Source: Acidiphilium sp. C61 (lineage in GTDB: Bacteria; Pseudomonadota; Alphaproteobacteria; Acetobacterales; Acetobacteraceae). Taken from it: a stretch of 64,000 nucleotides of DNA. Location: contig NZ_CACTIA010000005.1 in assembly GCF_902712915.1 (NCBI RefSeq), positions 3,012,501 to 3,076,500 on the forward strand, in the 5' to 3' direction. The notes beneath the pieces are model-generated. The model did not search any database and was not told the DNA's origin. It was given only the letters and a program-made list of their open reading frames with translations. The stretch's first letter is position 1. Every line of letters starts with the position of its first letter. The position numbers were made by a program, and so were the translations under genes. This document shows positions 13,444-61,230 of the stretch, piece by piece.

Positions 13444-13481
13444 GCCGCCCGCCTTGCGCCGCGCCTCACGCCGCGCCTCAC
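13441..13481 (-). repeat. Expanded accD-folC junction with bridging mini-ORF
   Basis: The words GCGGCGTGAGGC, GCGGCGTGAGGC and GCGGCGCAAGGC follow each other with a 12-base period. A GTG at 13481 overlaps the accD TGA, and from it 13 codons are open and end in a TGA (13442-13440) that overlaps the folC ATG (13443-13441). The two genes are therefore joined by a chain of overlapping stop/start signals and not by an ordinary spacer. Confidence 0.6.
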
Positions 13482-18424: not shown

Positions 18425-18958
18425 ATGGGCATCGACGCCATGCACGAAAAGACAGCCCAACCCGGCACGGCTGCCGGTCTCCTTTTCCTCCGCGAGGAAG
18501 AACTCCGCCTCGCCCAGGACATGATCTTCTTCGCCAACCGCGACCTCGTGGCCGCGGCGGACGCGATTCTCGCGGAAATGGGCTTCGGCCGCGCGCATCA
18601 CCGCACGCTGCATTTCATCGGCCGCAACCCCGGCCTGCCGGTCGGCGAGCTGCTACACATTCTCGGCATCGCCAAGCAGAGCCTCGCCCGCGTCCTCGGC
18701 CCGCTGATCCGCGATGGCTATGTCGAGCAGATTCCCGGCCGGGCGGATCGCCGCCAGCGCCTGCTCAGCCTCACGCCCGCGGGGGCGGCGCTGGAGCGCA
18801 AGCTGTTCGAGGCCCAGCGCGAGCGCCTGACCGCCGCCTTCCGCGAGGCCGGCGGCCCCGCCGTCGAGGGGTTCCGCCGCGTGCTGCGCGGCATGATGAA
18901 GGATGAGGCCCGCGCCTATCTCGACCGGGCCGATGCCGGGCGCACCGCGCGGCGATGA
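18425..18958 (+). CDS. petP: MarR-family regulator (PetP-like)
   Basis: This 177-residue regulator has a central winged helix (residues 55-115: LPVGELLHILGIAKQSLARVLGPLIRDG, then the wing GRADRRQRLLSLT). Its pairing with a downstream OmpR-type regulator by a 4-base ATGA overlap is the PetP-PetR arrangement first described beside cytochrome bc1 genes in Rhodobacter; that link is family knowledge. No pet genes are in this window. An alternative start is the ATG at 18440 (MHEKTAQ). Confidence 0.88.
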   Translation: MGIDAMHEKTAQPGTAAGLLFLREEELRLAQDMIFFANRDLVAAADAILAEMGFGRAHHRTLHFIGRNPGLPVGELLHILGIAKQSLARVLGPLIRDGYVEQIPGRADRRQRLLSLTPAGAALERKLFEAQRERLTAAFREAGGPAVEGFRRVLRGMMKDEARAYLDRADAGRTARR

Positions 18959-19653
18959 GCGGGGCGGCCGGCGCCCATATCCTGCTGGTCGATGACGATG
19001 CCCGCCTGCGCGCCCTGATGCAGCGCTACCTGGTCGAGAACGGCTTTCGCGTCACCGTCGCCGAAAGTGCCGCCGCCGCCCGCGAAACCCTGCGCGTGGT
19101 CGACCCCGACATGATGGTGCTCGACGTGATGATGCCCGAGGAAACCGGGCTCGACTTCGTCGAATCCCTCCGCGCCGACCGCGCGCCCGATCTGCCGATC
19201 CTGCTGCTCACCGCCCGCGGCGCGCCGGAAGACCGCATCGCCGGCTTCGAGGCGGGGGCGGATGATTATCTCGGCAAGCCGTTCGACCCGCGGGAATTGC
19301 TGCTGCGGATCCGCGCGATGCTCCGCCGCGCCGCGCCGCCCGCGCAGCAAGCCGGCCCGGTCCGGCTGGGGGCGGCGAGCTTCGATCCTGCCCGCGGCGA
19401 ACTCACCACCCTGCGCGGCCCGGTCCGCCTGACCGGCGGCGAGGCGAGCCTGCTCGCCGTCCTCGCCGCCCGCGCCCATGAGGTGCTCTCGCGCGAGGCG
19501 CTGGCCGAGATCCTCGGCATGGACGAGGCCGGCGAACGCGCGATCGACGTGCAGGTGACCCGCCTGCGCCGCAAGATCGAGCCCGACCCGCGCGAGCCGC
19601 GCTACCTGCAAACCGTGCGCGGCCGCGGCTACGTCCTCAAGCCCGGCCCATGA
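18955..19653 (+). CDS. petR: OmpR-family response regulator (PetR-like)
   Basis: This 232-residue protein has a receiver domain with acidic pocket DDD near residue 14, phospho-acceptor D57 (MMVLDVMMPEETG) and K108 (LGKPFDP). A C-terminal winged-helix DNA-binding domain follows (LTGGEASLLAVLAARAHEVLSREAL, then QTVRGRGYVLKPG). It overlaps petP by four bases. Its TGA at 19651-19653 overlaps an ATG that opens a chain of tiny frames leading to the kinase start, so kinase translation seems tied to this stop. Confidence 0.94.
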   Translation: MSGAAGAHILLVDDDARLRALMQRYLVENGFRVTVAESAAAARETLRVVDPDMMVLDVMMPEETGLDFVESLRADRAPDLPILLLTARGAPEDRIAGFEAGADDYLGKPFDPRELLLRIRAMLRRAAPPAQQAGPVRLGAASFDPARGELTTLRGPVRLTGGEASLLAVLAARAHEVLSREALAEILGMDEAGERAIDVQVTRLRRKIEPDPREPRYLQTVRGRGYVLKPGP

Positions 19654-19738
19654 GGCTCGCCTCATGAGACTAACCACAGTGAGACCCGCCCCATGAGACC
19701 CGTCACATGAGACTGGCCACATGAGACTGGCCACATGA
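19650..19738 (+). repeat. 14-base tandem repeat forming a mini-ORF relay between petR and the kinase
   Basis: Copies of a 14-base unit of the form ATGAGACTGGCCAC run from the petR stop to the kinase start. Read as codons they give successive frames 19650-19667 (MRLAS), 19664-19696 (ten codons), 19693-19710 (MRPVT), 19707-19724 (MRLAT) and 19721-19738 (MRLAT). Each ends in a TGA that overlaps the next ATG as ATGA. The last ATG (19735) is the kinase start. One unit is imperfect (ACAGTGAG), merging two steps into one longer frame. All positions were read directly from the sequence. Confidence 0.85.
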
Positions 19739-21063
19739 GACTGGCCCCGCGCGGTCTCGAGCCCGACCGCGTGCTGCGCAAGATCCTGCCGCGCAGCCTG
19801 TTCGGCCGCACCCTGCTGATCGTGGTCCTGCCGCTGGTCCTGCTCGAGGGCGTCGCCCTGCAAATATTCTATGGCAGCCATCTCGACGTTCTCTCCCGCC
19901 GCCTCGCCGGCAGCGTCGCCGGCGAGATCGCCTTCGTGCTCGACCAGGCGACGCTCCACCCCGCCGCCCGCAGCCGCATCTTCGCCCACGCCGCCCGGCG
20001 CTTCGAGTTCCGCATCCGCGTCCATCCCGGCGCCACGCTCACCCCGCGCGGCCTGCCGCACGCCTTCGGCCCGGTCGATACCGATCTCGCCCGCGCCCTG
20101 CGGCAGAATCTCGACCGCGATTTCACCCTCGCCTGGCGCGGCCCGCCGGGGATGATCCGGGTCGACATCCAGCTCTCGGGCGGCGTGCTCACGGTCGATG
20201 TGCCGCGCAAGCGGCTCTATGTCGGCGCGCTCTACATCTTCTTCGCCTGGCTCGCCGGCGTCACCATCCTGCTGCTCGGCATCGCCATCCTGTTCCTGCG
20301 CAACCAGATCCGCGCCATCCGCCGCCTCGCCTTCGCCGCCGAGGCCTTCGGCATGGGGCGCGATCCCGGCCCGATCCGCCCCGAGGGCGCGATCGAGGTC
20401 CGCCGCGCCGCCACCGCCTTCAACCGGATGCAGGACCGCATCCGCCGCTTCCTCGTCCAGCGCACCGCGATGCTCGCCGGCGTCTCGCACGACCTGCGCA
20501 CCCCGCTCACCCGGCTGCGCCTCGCCCTCGCGATGATGCCGCCCGACACCGCCGATCTCGAGGGCATGACCGAGGACATCGCCGAGATGGAGCGGCTGAT
20601 CGGCCTCTACCTCACCTTCGCCCGCGGCGAGGGCACCGAGCAGCCGCAACCGGCCGACCTCGCCCTGCTGATCGAGGATCTGGCGGCGCGGGCGGCGCGC
20701 GGCGGCGCGCCGATCGGGCTCGATCTCGCCCCGCTCCCCCCGGTGGTGCTGCGGCCGGAGGCGATGCGCCGCGCGCTCGCCAACCTGCTCGACAATGCCG
20801 CCCGCCACGCCGCCGGCCGAATCGTCATCGGCGCCGCCCAGGAAGGCGGGCAAACCCTGCGGATCACCATCGACGATGACGGCCCCGGCCTCCCCGCAAG
20901 CCGCCGCGCGGCGATGCTGCGCCCCTTCGAGAGCGGCAGCGCCAGCGGCACCGGCCTTGGTCTCGCCATCGCGCGCGACATCGTCGCTGCCCATGGCGGC
21001 GACCTCCACCTCGCCGACAGCCCGCTCGGCGGCCTCCGGGTGATCGTCACCCTGCCGCTCTGA
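19735..21063 (+). CDS. EnvZ-like sensor histidine kinase, partner of PetR-like regulator
   Basis: This 442-residue inner-membrane kinase has helix one (residues 27-47), a periplasmic domain to about residue 162, and helix two (163-187). A HAMP domain, the phospho-acceptor H252 in GVSHDLRTPLTR and a HATPase domain follow, with N-box LANLLDNAARHA, G1 DDDGPGLP and G2 GTGLGLAI. The start at 19735 is the last ATG of the repeat relay; a GTG at 19771 is the only other sensible start. Overlap logic and direction show it is the partner of the upstream response regulator. The signal is unknown. Confidence 0.93.
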   Translation: MRLAPRGLEPDRVLRKILPRSLFGRTLLIVVLPLVLLEGVALQIFYGSHLDVLSRRLAGSVAGEIAFVLDQATLHPAARSRIFAHAARRFEFRIRVHPGATLTPRGLPHAFGPVDTDLARALRQNLDRDFTLAWRGPPGMIRVDIQLSGGVLTVDVPRKRLYVGALYIFFAWLAGVTILLLGIAILFLRNQIRAIRRLAFAAEAFGMGRDPGPIRPEGAIEVRRAATAFNRMQDRIRRFLVQRTAMLAGVSHDLRTPLTRLRLALAMMPPDTADLEGMTEDIAEMERLIGLYLTFARGEGTEQPQPADLALLIEDLAARAARGGAPIGLDLAPLPPVVLRPEAMRRALANLLDNAARHAAGRIVIGAAQEGGQTLRITIDDDGPGLPASRRAAMLRPFESGSASGTGLGLAIARDIVAAHGGDLHLADSPLGGLRVIVTLPL

Positions 21064-42554: not shown

Positions 42555-42884
42555 GTGAACACCGCCGCCATCCTCGCCCTCCTCGCCGCCGCCGCCACCC
42601 TCGAGATCGGCGGCGACGCCCTGATGCGCGCCGCCCTCCACCATCACGGCCTCGCCCGCGCCCCCTTCCTCGCCGCCGGCATCCTCGTCCTCGCCGCCTA
42701 CGGCCTCGTGGTGAATCTCGGCCCATGGGATTTCGGACGCGTCCTCGGCATATACGTCACCCTCTTCTTCCTCATCGCCCAGCTGGTGAACTGGCTCGGC
42801 TTCGGCCTCCGCCCATCCCCCGCCATCCTCCTCGGCGGCGCCCTCATCTGCGCCGGCGGCCTGGTCATCACCCTCTTTCAATGA
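42555..42884 (+). CDS. Small four-helix membrane protein (SMR/DMT-like topology)
   Basis: This 109-residue hydrophobic protein has four predicted helices. [19 protein letters not shown] near the N-terminus has a conserved-looking Glu in helix one, as small multidrug resistance proteins do, and [27 protein letters not shown] follows. The start is a GTG at 42555. I do not assign a transport substrate. Its TGA overlaps the first ATG of a two-step mini-ORF relay leading to the glycosyltransferase. Confidence 0.7.
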
Positions 42885-42911
42885 CCCTCCGGCAATGACC
42901 CTCTGGCAATG
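42881..42911 (+). repeat. 14-base mini-ORF relay between membrane protein and glycosyltransferase genes
   Basis: ATGACCCTCCGGCA (42881-42894) and ATGACCCTCTGGCA (42895-42908) differ by one base and lead into ATGACCATCCAG (42909). As codons they read MTLRQ-stop and MTLWQ-stop, each stop overlapping the next ATG as ATGA. The first ATG overlaps the membrane-protein stop, and the third is the glycosyltransferase start. A degenerate relative lies at 42527-42544, after ruvX (MTPEE-stop, with GAAGAATGA/GAAGAATAA 14 bases apart). Confidence 0.85.
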
Positions 42912-43667
42912 ACCATCCAGGCCCACATGTTCTGGCACGGCGACCCACCCCGCCGCCTCGAACGCCTCGCCATCCGCAGCGTCCTCGCCCAGGGCTACGC
43001 GCTCACCATCTGGACCTACACGCCCCAGCCCAACCTCCCCTCCGGTGTCACCACGGCCGACGCCGCCGCAATCCTCCCCCGCTCCGCCCTCTTCACCAAC
43101 CGCCGCGTCTCCATCGCCAGCTTCGCCGACTGGTTTCGCTACATCGTCCTCTCCCGCCACGGCGGCCTCTGGACCGATTCCGACGTCATCGCCCTGCGCC
43201 CCGCCGCCGCCCTGCCGGCGCAGAAATTCCTCGTCACCCAGCGCGCCTGGTTCCACCGCCGCCTCCGCCCCCGCGGCTGGACAACCACCCTCAACAACAA
43301 CGTGATCTTCAACCCCACCCCCACGAAGGGCGACGTGATCGACCTCGCCCTCGCCGTCGCCGAACGCTTCCCCAAGGACGCGATCGACTGGGGCGAACTC
43401 GGCCCCGACCTGCTGACCGCTCTCACCCGCCTCCACCCCGCCCACGGCTACGCCATCATGCCGCCCCGCTTCGCCAACCCGATCGGCTACTGGGAAAGCC
43501 CCGAAGCCCTGCTCCGCCCCAACCCGCCCCGCCTGCCCCCCGAATCCGCCTTCCTCCACGCCTATGGCGAAATGTGGCGCCGCGCCGGCATATCCCCCGA
43601 CGCCCCGTTCCCCCCAGGCAGCCTCCTCGCCACCCTCGCCACACGCTTCGGCGAACCCAACCCCTGA
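42909..43667 (+). CDS. DXD-motif glycosyltransferase (Gly_transf_sug / OCH1-like)
   Basis: This 252-residue protein begins [30 protein letters not shown], the typical opening of Gly_transf_sug enzymes. The sugar-nucleotide site is [25 protein letters not shown] (D-x-D form). [21 protein letters not shown] and [15 protein letters not shown] are also family-like. It has no signal or membrane segment and probably works in the cytoplasm on surface glycans. Third-position C is very frequent here, as in the next genes. Confidence 0.87.
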
Positions 43668-59434: not shown

Positions 59435-60714
59435 GCGACGCGGAAATCGCGGCACTGCTCGCGGCAGCGCCGGTCGAGCCCTGCGGCGGCGCCGCGCTGC
59501 ATCTGCTCGCGCCGGCGGACTGGCTGCGTCTCGCCGAGCTGGTGGACCCGGCGGATTTCGCCGGGCTGTTCGTCGCCGATGGCCGTGCCCATGCGCTGTT
59601 CTTTCGTGCGGCGCCGCTGCTGGTGGCGGTGGCGCTGGACAATGGCGCGTATCCCGCGCTTTCGCCGGCGATCCCCGAGGCTGGCTGGTATGAGCGGCGG
59701 GCGGCCGAAACCCATGGCGCGACCGCGACGGGTGCGACCGACACCCGGCCGGCCATCCGCCACGGCGAGGGCGACGCCGCCTGGCCGCGCTTCGACGCGC
59801 CGGCCGATGAGGGGGCGTTTCAGGTCGGGCAGGGGCCGGTCGCCGGGTTGATCGCCCGGCCGGTGCATCGCCGGTTCACCATCGCGGCGGGGCGGATTGC
59901 CCGGCTCGAACATCGCCACGGCTATGCCCACCGCGACATCGCGGCGCTGCTGCATGGCAAGTCGCCGCGCGCGGCGGCGCGTTTCGCGGCGCGGCTGGCC
60001 GGCGATGCGGTGGTGGCGCATGCGCTTGCCTTCGCCCGTGCCGCCGAGGCGGCGGGCGGGTGCGATATTCCGCCCCGCGCCGCGGCGCTGCGGGCGGCGA
60101 TGCTGGATATCGAGCGGGTGACGGCGCATCTGCTGGCGCTGACGGCAGCGCTCGAGGCGGCGGGCCGGCCCGGGCTTGCGACCCGCCTGGGCCGCGTGCG
60201 GGACGATATCGCCGCTGCCGTGGCGGTGCTGTTCGGCCACCGGTTGATGATGGACGCGGTGACGCCCGGCGGGCTGGAGGTGGATGCCCGGCCGGAGGCG
60301 CTGCCGGCGCTCGCCGCCGCCCTGGCTGCGGCCGTGCCGTCGGTGCGGCTGGTGGGTGGATTTCGCGTCCGCCGGGCGCTGGGGCCGGCGGCGGCGCTGG
60401 CGCGCGACCGGGCGCGGGCGGTGCTGGCGCGCGTGAGCGCGATCGTGCCCGCGATCGAGGCGGCGCCGCCGGGCGAGATCGTGGCAGCACTGCCGCCGGT
60501 GAGCGCCGCCGGGCTCGGCTCGGCCGCCTCGTCGCGCGGGATGGTGCATCACTGGGTGAAGCTGCATGACGGGCAGATCGCGGCGGCGGCGCTGATCGAC
60601 CCGGCGCCGCGCCTCGCGAGCCGCCTGGAGGAGGCGGCTGTCGGGCTGGATATCGAGGGCTTCGCCGTGCTGGAGGCATGCTACGCGGTGCCGACGGGGG
60701 CGATCGATGGATGA
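59431..60714 (+). CDS. HyfG/NuoCD-like large subunit lacking NiFe ligands
   Basis: This 427-residue protein fuses a NuoC-like N-terminal part (residues 1-115) to a NuoD/hydrogenase large-subunit part. Where hydrogenase large subunits have R-x-C-G-x-C, this protein reads RLAGDAVVAHALAFARAAE, with A190 and A193 at the cysteine places. The C-terminal CxxC is reduced to ACYAV (C417 only). It therefore cannot hold a normal NiFe site. This is the defining trait of energy-converting hydrogenase-related (Ehr) complexes, as described for that family. The ATG overlaps the previous stop. Confidence 0.75.
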   Translation: MSDAEIAALLAAAPVEPCGGAALHLLAPADWLRLAELVDPADFAGLFVADGRAHALFFRAAPLLVAVALDNGAYPALSPAIPEAGWYERRAAETHGATATGATDTRPAIRHGEGDAAWPRFDAPADEGAFQVGQGPVAGLIARPVHRRFTIAAGRIARLEHRHGYAHRDIAALLHGKSPRAAARFAARLAGDAVVAHALAFARAAEAAGGCDIPPRAAALRAAMLDIERVTAHLLALTAALEAAGRPGLATRLGRVRDDIAAAVAVLFGHRLMMDAVTPGGLEVDARPEALPALAAALAAAVPSVRLVGGFRVRRALGPAAALARDRARAVLARVSAIVPAIEAAPPGEIVAALPPVSAAGLGSAASSRGMVHHWVKLHDGQIAAAALIDPAPRLASRLEEAAVGLDIEGFAVLEACYAVPTGAIDG

Positions 60715-60741
60715 CATCGATGGATGATAATGATGGATGAC
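60707..60741 (+). repeat. 13-base tandem repeat relay at large/small subunit junction
   Basis: Units ATCGATGGATGAC (60703-60715), ATCGATGGATGAT (60716-60728) and AATGATGGATGAC (60729-60741) give mini-frames 60707-60727 (MDDIDG-stop) and 60720-60740 (MDDNDG-stop). Each overlaps the next start by eight bases (ATGGATGA). The large-subunit stop overlaps the first ATG in the same way, and the ATG at 60733 opens the small subunit. Confidence 0.75.
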
Positions 60742-61230
60742 ATGGACGATCCGGTCCGGGTGCTGGGTGCCCGGCTTGCGGCCACGGGCCAGGCGCTGCT
60801 CGGCCGGAGCCTCGCGGTGCGGCATGTCGATGCCGGCAGTTGCGGCGGCTGCGAGATCGAGATCGGCGCCTGCCGGCGGTTGCGCGGCGGCATGGCCGCG
60901 CAGGGCATCGTCCTGGTGGACGACATCCGCGCCGCCGATCTCCTGCTGGTGACCGGGGTGGCGACGCGCACCCTCGCCGAGGCGCTGCGCAAGAGCCTTG
61001 CCGGGATGGCGCCGCCGCGCTTCGTCGTCGCGGCCGGCGACTGCGCGCTGGATGGCGGCGTGTTCAAGGGCGCGCCGCCGGTTCTGGGCGGGGTGCAGGC
61101 GGTGATCCCGGTTGATCTGCTGATCGCCGGCTGTCCGCCCTCGCCACGGCAGATCCTTGCGGGGCTGACGGCGTTGCTGGAGGCGAATGCGCGCGAGGCA
61201 CGGGCGAGGCGCACCGAGCCGCATGCCTGA
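60733..61230 (+). CDS. NuoB/HyfI-like small subunit with intact [4Fe-4S] motif
   Basis: This 165-residue protein carries the N2-type cluster ligands C37 and C40 ([10 protein letters not shown]), C104 (GDCALDGG) and C134 (GCPPSPRQ). It has no signal peptide. It is the electron-transfer partner of the large subunit upstream, which lacks the NiFe site, so electrons may move to or from an unknown acceptor. An in-frame ATG at 60724 is an alternative start. Its end overlaps the rnhB start by eight bases. No ferredoxin-like HyfH gene is present. Confidence 0.85.

Follow-up and report, generated by a model that had tools for sequence, protein, structure and literature searches.

How does translation pass from a response regulator gene to the histidine kinase gene downstream when the two are separated by a tandem array of 14-nt repeats, and how did such an array come to be there? 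We addressed this for a 64,000-nt stretch of DNA from Acidiphilium sp. C61, referred to below as the window. We consider it likely that the array consists of local tandem duplications of −4 overlaps, kept mainly when coupled reinitiation survives. We observed the anatomy of the array, its expansion series in near relatives, its recurrence at other junctions, and a bias in its frame. Selection on coupling would be the simplest account of this phase bias, and it is the one that we infer.

An unbroken stop-start chain between the regulator and kinase genes

Genes for a MarR-type regulator, a response regulator (RR), and a sensor histidine kinase (HK) lie in a row (Table 1). With a receiver and winged helix in one protein and HAMP-HisKA-HATPase domains in the other, the RR-HK pair fits an OmpR/EnvZ-type two-component system; matches to OmpR and EnvZ proper (NCBIfam equivalogs) fell below the curated cut-offs, at 210.2 of 331 and 227.3 of 415 bits. 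The name PetR goes with a link to a MarR-like PetP. The first-pass annotation had called the RR gene petR, a name that the NCBIfam search did not assign, its best matches being the two subthreshold ones to OmpR and EnvZ.

TABLE 1 Features of the regulator-kinase region and of a second relay in the window
Feature	Position	Strand	Remarks
MarR-family regulator ORF, 177 aa	18425..18958	+	Pfam MarR_2, 2.3e-12; TGA overlaps RR ATG at ATGA 18955-18958
OmpR-type response regulator (RR) ORF, 232 aa	18955..19653	+	Pfam Response_reg, Trans_reg_C; NCBIfam OmpR below cut-off
Mini-ORF 1, MRLAS*	19650..19667	+	Start overlaps RR stop
Mini-ORF 2, MRLTTVRPAP*, 10 codons	19664..19696	+	In-frame GTG 19679 after 1-nt insertion
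Mini-ORF 3, MRPVT*	19693..19710	+	
Mini-ORF 4, MRLAT*	19707..19724	+	
Mini-ORF 5, MRLAT*	19721..19738	+	Stop overlaps kinase ATG
EnvZ-like sensor histidine kinase (HK) ORF, 442 aa	19735..21063	+	Pfam HAMP, HisKA, HATPase_c; NCBIfam EnvZ below cut-off
Second 14-nt ATGA relay, two 5-codon mini-ORFs (ATG 42881, ATG 42895)	42881..42912	+	

The RR stop codon, TGA at 19651-19653, sits within an ATGA (19650-19653), and from there an unbroken stop-start chain runs through starts at 19650, 19664, 19693, 19707, 19721, and 19735, the last of which is the kinase ATG. At all six links a TGA overlaps the next ATG at −4 nt, the arrangement of coupled gene pairs. The first-pass annotation had described a relay of five mini-ORFs of five codons each; the five frames are there and unbroken, but their lengths are 5, 10, 5, 5, and 5 codons.

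TRF gives the array a period of 14, 6.9 copies, and an 82% match, and the six units 5′ of the kinase measure 14, 14, 15, 14, 14, and 14 nt. The 15-nt unit (AGTGAGACCCGCCCC, AGTGAG...) lacks an ATG, and its GTG at 19679 shares the reading frame of ATG 19664. The one-base insertion gives mini-ORF 2 a step of 29 nt, its frame continuing to the next ATGA. Because 29, like 14, is 2 mod 3, the chain remains intact.

Chance expectation and other relays in the window

A five-step chain anywhere on one strand turned up in 2 of 300 order-1 Markov windows under a generous definition (ATG, GTG, or TTG starts and frames of up to 20 codons), and the length of the chain alone is therefore only moderately improbable. 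The placement of the array between genes is more telling: outside arrays, the fetched loci contain 569 ATGA pairs spaced 30 to 110 nt, of which 7 bridge two coding frames.

When the window was scanned for relays from gene to gene, four emerged, two being 14-nt arrays, besides 21 direct overlaps. The second 14-nt relay (Table 1) joins ORF 42555-42884 (UPF0060) to ORF 42909-43667 (Gly_transf_sug, glycosyltransferase-like). At 60711-60742, a 13-nt ATGA repeat lies between a nickel-hydrogenase-type gene and an Oxidored_q6 gene. Here the gene-frame start at 60724 is 13 nt on, in phase 1 and 9 nt after the stop, and the relay does not reach it. Given this counterexample, the phase rule (steps of 2 mod 3) is a strong bias and not a law, and a start within about 10 nt of a stop may need no phase rule. 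The stricter statement that phase 1 never occurs was dropped in view of the 60711 repeat and the double-step relays described below.

On the minus strand at 13481, the window also has a 38-nt single-step relay with a GTGAGGCGCGGC direct repeat, likely at a gene junction.

The kinase start

A kinase start at GTG 19771, independent of the upstream stop, had been named in advance as one finding that would speak against the relay. The comparison favors 19735. From Met onward, the sequence MRLAPRGLEPDR is conserved in loci L085 and L086 and almost fully in L090 and L092; in the latter two the codon at 19771 is GCC and GCG (Ala), respectively. GTG 19771 is thus disfavored, not being a start codon in either locus.

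The kinase ATG has no strong Shine-Dalgarno (SD) match: it scores −2.7 kcal/mol, and the median over 831 ATGs is −2.5. Within the chain, the best match is a GAGG before mini-ORF 2 (−5.6). A scan of 19400-20000 for sigma-70 promoters and terminators found nothing, with 0 expected.

Unit number in near relatives

In genome G236, whose RR gene DNA is 92.6% identical to that of the window over 686 bases, the two genes meet in a plain ATGA overlap (ATGAGGCTCGCCCCGCGC). In G332, with RR gene DNA 96.3% identical to the window, one 14-nt mini-ORF intervenes (ATGAGGCTCGCCCC and then ATGAGACTGGCCCCGCGC). Relative to G332, the window has a first unit that is equal but for one base, an equal last unit, and five further units between them. 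The number of mini-ORFs therefore runs from 0 (G236) to 1 (G332) to 5 (window) with the chain unbroken throughout, in a series that compares sister species and not strains of one species. Because of this series, we read the unit as derived from the start region of the kinase itself by duplication and subsequent expansion.

Comparing unit number among relatives was a check proposed with the first-pass annotation, and two of its suggestions are supported. Origin from a duplicated ATGA junction agrees with the plain overlap in G236 and with the extra unit in G332, where near-first and last window units are found together. That unit number may change without breaking the coupling agrees with the chain being kept at each of the three counts.

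A search of the 64-kb window that allowed up to 2 mismatches turned up no further instance of the 14-nt unit. An independent expansion, of 29 + 14 + 14 nt, is present in L006 and L082, and the sister locus L115 has a plain overlap. A plasmid search returned four records from Azospirillum, which together with the query aligned over 31% of the latter.

The same junction across relatives

We tried 203 loci and obtained 156 distinct orthologous RR-HK junctions after removing 22 for HK identity below 45%, 11 for lack of the pair, and 14 as duplicates. The kinase start was defined as the first start codon in the kinase open frame after the RR stop, which is not a known start. On this definition, 91 of the 156 junctions have an RR stop that shares bases with a possible start (NTGA): directly the kinase start in 49, a relay to it in 27, and neither in 15. 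Where the kinase start is displaced by 8 nt or more, a relay was found at 27 of 36 junctions with an NTGA stop, versus 2 of 24 controls, in which the RR stop overlaps no start codon (Fisher, 2.5e-7). With all offsets counted, a pseudo-relay was seen in 7 of 65 controls. Junctions with NTGA at both ends were relayed in 23 of 26 cases. Related genomes in these counts are not independent of one another, and many of the genomes compared are drafts or MAGs, judging by record titles and numbers of contigs.

Relay steps included 11, 14, 17, 20, 23, 26, 29, 32, 38, and 47 nt, and 146 to 233 nt in longer spacers; the long relays among the 27 (such as those of L199, L210, and L216) could be chance products. 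On a FastTree tree, the relay state must have been gained or lost at least 20 times (25.4 for shuffled labels), and strongly supported branches force 15 of these changes. Relays are sister to plain overlaps in L006/L115 (support 99), L118/L121 (97), and L097/L113 (88). Within one lineage, L154, L158, and L164 have steps of 20, 17, and 20 nt, a 3-nt difference that keeps the phase.

A different kind of insert occupies this junction in L087, L088, L089, L091, and L114: a dispersed palindromic sequence of about 115 to 130 nt with an open frame, which ends exactly on the kinase ATG in L089, L091, and L114 and 7 nt past the ATG in the other two. Further matches to it were found in L018, L019, L112, L125, L150, L181, L218, and L281, and none in the window. 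This palindromic insert resembles mycobacterial interspersed repetitive units (MIRUs) more than the 14-nt arrays do.

ATGA arrays at other gene junctions

We searched genomes for four ATGAs at a fixed period, with the reversed pattern as a control. At period 14, matches were found in 49 of 397 genomes of the family (Acetobacteraceae), and the reversed pattern gave 3. In one subset of 160 genomes, period 14 matched in 26, period 17 in 10, and period 11 in 8; the same subset gave 7 genomes for period 16, 1 for period 13, and 31 for period 15. Many period-15 matches look like in-frame coding repeats. At the phylum level there was no enrichment (period 14 in 10 of 175 genomes, the reversed pattern in 9 of 175).

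Arrays were then classified by coding-frame tests on both sides, with the first ATGA at a gene stop and the last at a gene start. The period-14 arrays come from the 397 genomes and those of other periods from the 160. Among the matches listed, exact placement between two coding frames was found for 27 of 71 arrays of period 14, 6 of 15 of period 17, 5 of 36 of period 15, 0 of 1 of period 13, and 0 of 8 each of periods 16 and 11. By phase, again among the matches listed, 33 of these exact arrays are 2 mod 3, 5 are 0 mod 3, and 0 are 1 mod 3. Restricting the matches listed to the 160 genomes gives exact placement in 15 of 43 period-14 arrays and phase counts of 21, 5, and 0. These tallies are samples, because only the first places in each genome were taken and some period-15 places were omitted. 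The earlier view of 14 nt as the period that the chain needs is thus supported in part: the comparative data are strongly biased toward 2 mod 3, but the window array itself is inexact, with its one 15-nt unit.

When imperfect edges were allowed, an unbroken gene-to-gene relay was present, among the matches listed, in 36 of 71 period-14 and 10 of 15 period-17 arrays. Relays via double steps (26 or 32 nt) accounted for the 1 of 1 array of period 13 and the 1 of 8 of period 16 in those matches, and the same matches gave 0 of 36 for period 15 and 0 of 8 for period 11, although 11 is also 2 mod 3. The other 35 of the 71 period-14 arrays listed are not gene-to-gene relays, several being 7-nt AT-rich repeats.

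Flanking genes were named for 10 of 38 junctions, with two of the 20 proteins lacking a family. The pairs are an FtsW-type protein with a family-28 glycosyltransferase (MurG-like), ThiG with thiamine-phosphate synthase, CcmE with a cytochrome c assembly protein, two transporter pairs, a CbiG-type protein with a tetrapyrrole methylase, a membrane-fusion protein with an AcrB-type pump, an oxidoreductase pair, and two pairs with one named partner. Unit sequences vary by locus and, judged by eye, have little in common beyond the searched ATGA.

Some individual cases are recorded here. Five period-15 arrays at gene starts (L299, L302, L305, L306, and L377) are in frame from the first ATG and would give repeated pentapeptides at the N terminus. 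L354, L355, L376, and L352 have homologous downstream genes (one with ...SFAFAGIEAVPV) and 14-nt arrays whose units differ, by eye, in two lineages; the L354 units are unlike those of L355 and L376 while the spacing stays at 14, and only L352 is flanked by coding frames on both sides. One 7.7-Mb genome, G018 (L361-L365 and L420-L449), is unusually rich, with 24 + 8 three-ATGA period-14 matches and 0 for the reversed pattern. In L274 the unit is palindromic, and ATGA can be read at period 14 on both strands.

Discussion

In the explanation that we favor, the ATGA stop/start overlap of RR and kinase would have been duplicated locally in tandem. With each step 2 mod 3, each copy creates a mini-ORF, its stop overlapping the start that follows. 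A ribosome finishing RR would be handed down the mini-ORFs to the kinase by repeated termination-reinitiation, their translation being predicted from the sequence. Such duplications would arise at many ATGA junctions in the Acetobacteraceae and would be retained mainly where coupling holds, which gives a relay at 2 mod 3 and an N-terminal extension in frame at 0 mod 3.

This explanation could be extended by supposing that each reinitiation loses ribosomes, so that unit number would set the ratio of regulator to kinase and would be selected as tunable. The idea is testable, since the junctions imply six reinitiation events in the window, two in G332, and one in G236. The three different unit numbers in near relatives, each with an intact chain, are consistent with it. 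However, simple tolerance of extra units would predict frame conservation just as well, and the ten named junctions are a mixture of metabolic, transport, and cell wall pairs without an evident common need, and we regard the extension as rather doubtful. A version covering the whole of the Acetobacteraceae strikes us as similarly speculative. There, operon junctions would gain or lose links of 14 (or 17) nt by slippage or duplication, a constant fraction of ribosomes would be lost per link, and copy number would set protein ratios without any change in promoter, SD, or codons.

It is improbable that the array is instead bypassed by an independent kinase start, whether from its own SD, by long scanning, or at GTG 19771, with the frame rule a coincidence. 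Weak GAG stretches before each repeated start and the base inserted in unit 3 would be compatible with this, as would the coupling over 73 nt, and even 150 to 850 nt, in work cited in the introduction of PMC10666635. Against it stand the lack of a strong SD at the kinase ATG, the Ala codons at 19771 in L090 and L092, and the phase bias across relatives and genomes. The paper's own data have reinitiation almost abolished at about 20 nt, and, if this is valid here, an 81-nt gap without a relay should uncouple or silence the kinase. The need for an SD differs between gene pairs (PMC6728339). We think it very unlikely that the array is a mobile, MIRU-like dispersed repeat inserted at the junction. 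Its overlap logic is that of MIRUs (PMC12548453), and the palindromic inserts show that dispersed elements do reach this junction in five loci. But the 14-nt unit does not recur in the window even with 2 mismatches allowed, it corresponds to the kinase's own first codons, and arrays elsewhere are built of different units. Slighter still is the chance that the array serves at the DNA or RNA level, as binding sites or an internal promoter, and is no translation device, even though proteins can bind to evenly spaced repeats that precede a gene. The MIRU spacer of senX3-regX3 does have promoter activity (PMC4213456). Yet the two ends of the arrays fall on a stop and a start codon, the units of different loci are, by eye, little alike, and the sigma-70 scan of 19400-20000 contained no promoter-like site, though 0 were expected.

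MIRU copy number varies between strains, a property used in typing. MIRUs such as those of senX3-regX3 are repeats between two-component genes with small ORFs coupled to their neighbors by a −4-nt overlap (PMC12548453 and PMC4213456), and the window array has this same arrangement. In contrast, the senX3-regX3 units are 53 and 77 bp (PMC4213456) and not 14 nt, and MIRUs appear to be mobile, whereas the window unit is templated by the local junction and other loci have other units. Strains are not alike in the composition of the senX3-regX3 spacer, two of them having different unit types (PMC4213456). Since the unit length does not fit and no dispersal was seen in the window or at the loci of other genomes, we do not class the 14-nt arrays as MIRUs; they are MIRU-like in logic but are not MIRUs.

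Each link is the standard −4-nt overlap at which termination-reinitiation is established (PMC6728339 and PMC10666635), but, unlike the coupled pairs described there, the arrays have 2 to 6 serial links via frames of a few codons. The regulatory minigenes mg1 and mg2 before txe (PMC8708949) are likewise very short ORFs, and their translation in cis changes how the next gene is expressed; mg2 differs in having two codons, ending 15 nt before the start, and forming no tandem chain. The intergenic TAACTGA heptamer arrays of Beggiatoaceae (PMC4679880) are also tandem repeats directly 5′ of starts and are thought to act in translation, but they consist of one fixed heptamer with stops in all forward frames, no start codon, and no relay. 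Among titles and abstracts of the open-licence literature we found no description of tandem stop-start mini-ORF chains at gene junctions, which is not proof of absence.

Automatic gene prediction will probably overlook ORFs of 5 codons and may misplace starts at such junctions. If the relay is real, one ribosome makes up to six consecutive terminations and reinitiations, and the arrays are natural test objects for distinguishing coupling by the same ribosome from coupling by mRNA unfolding only. The arrays suggest that repeat phase can reveal selection for coupling, and operon stoichiometry may evolve by repeat number.
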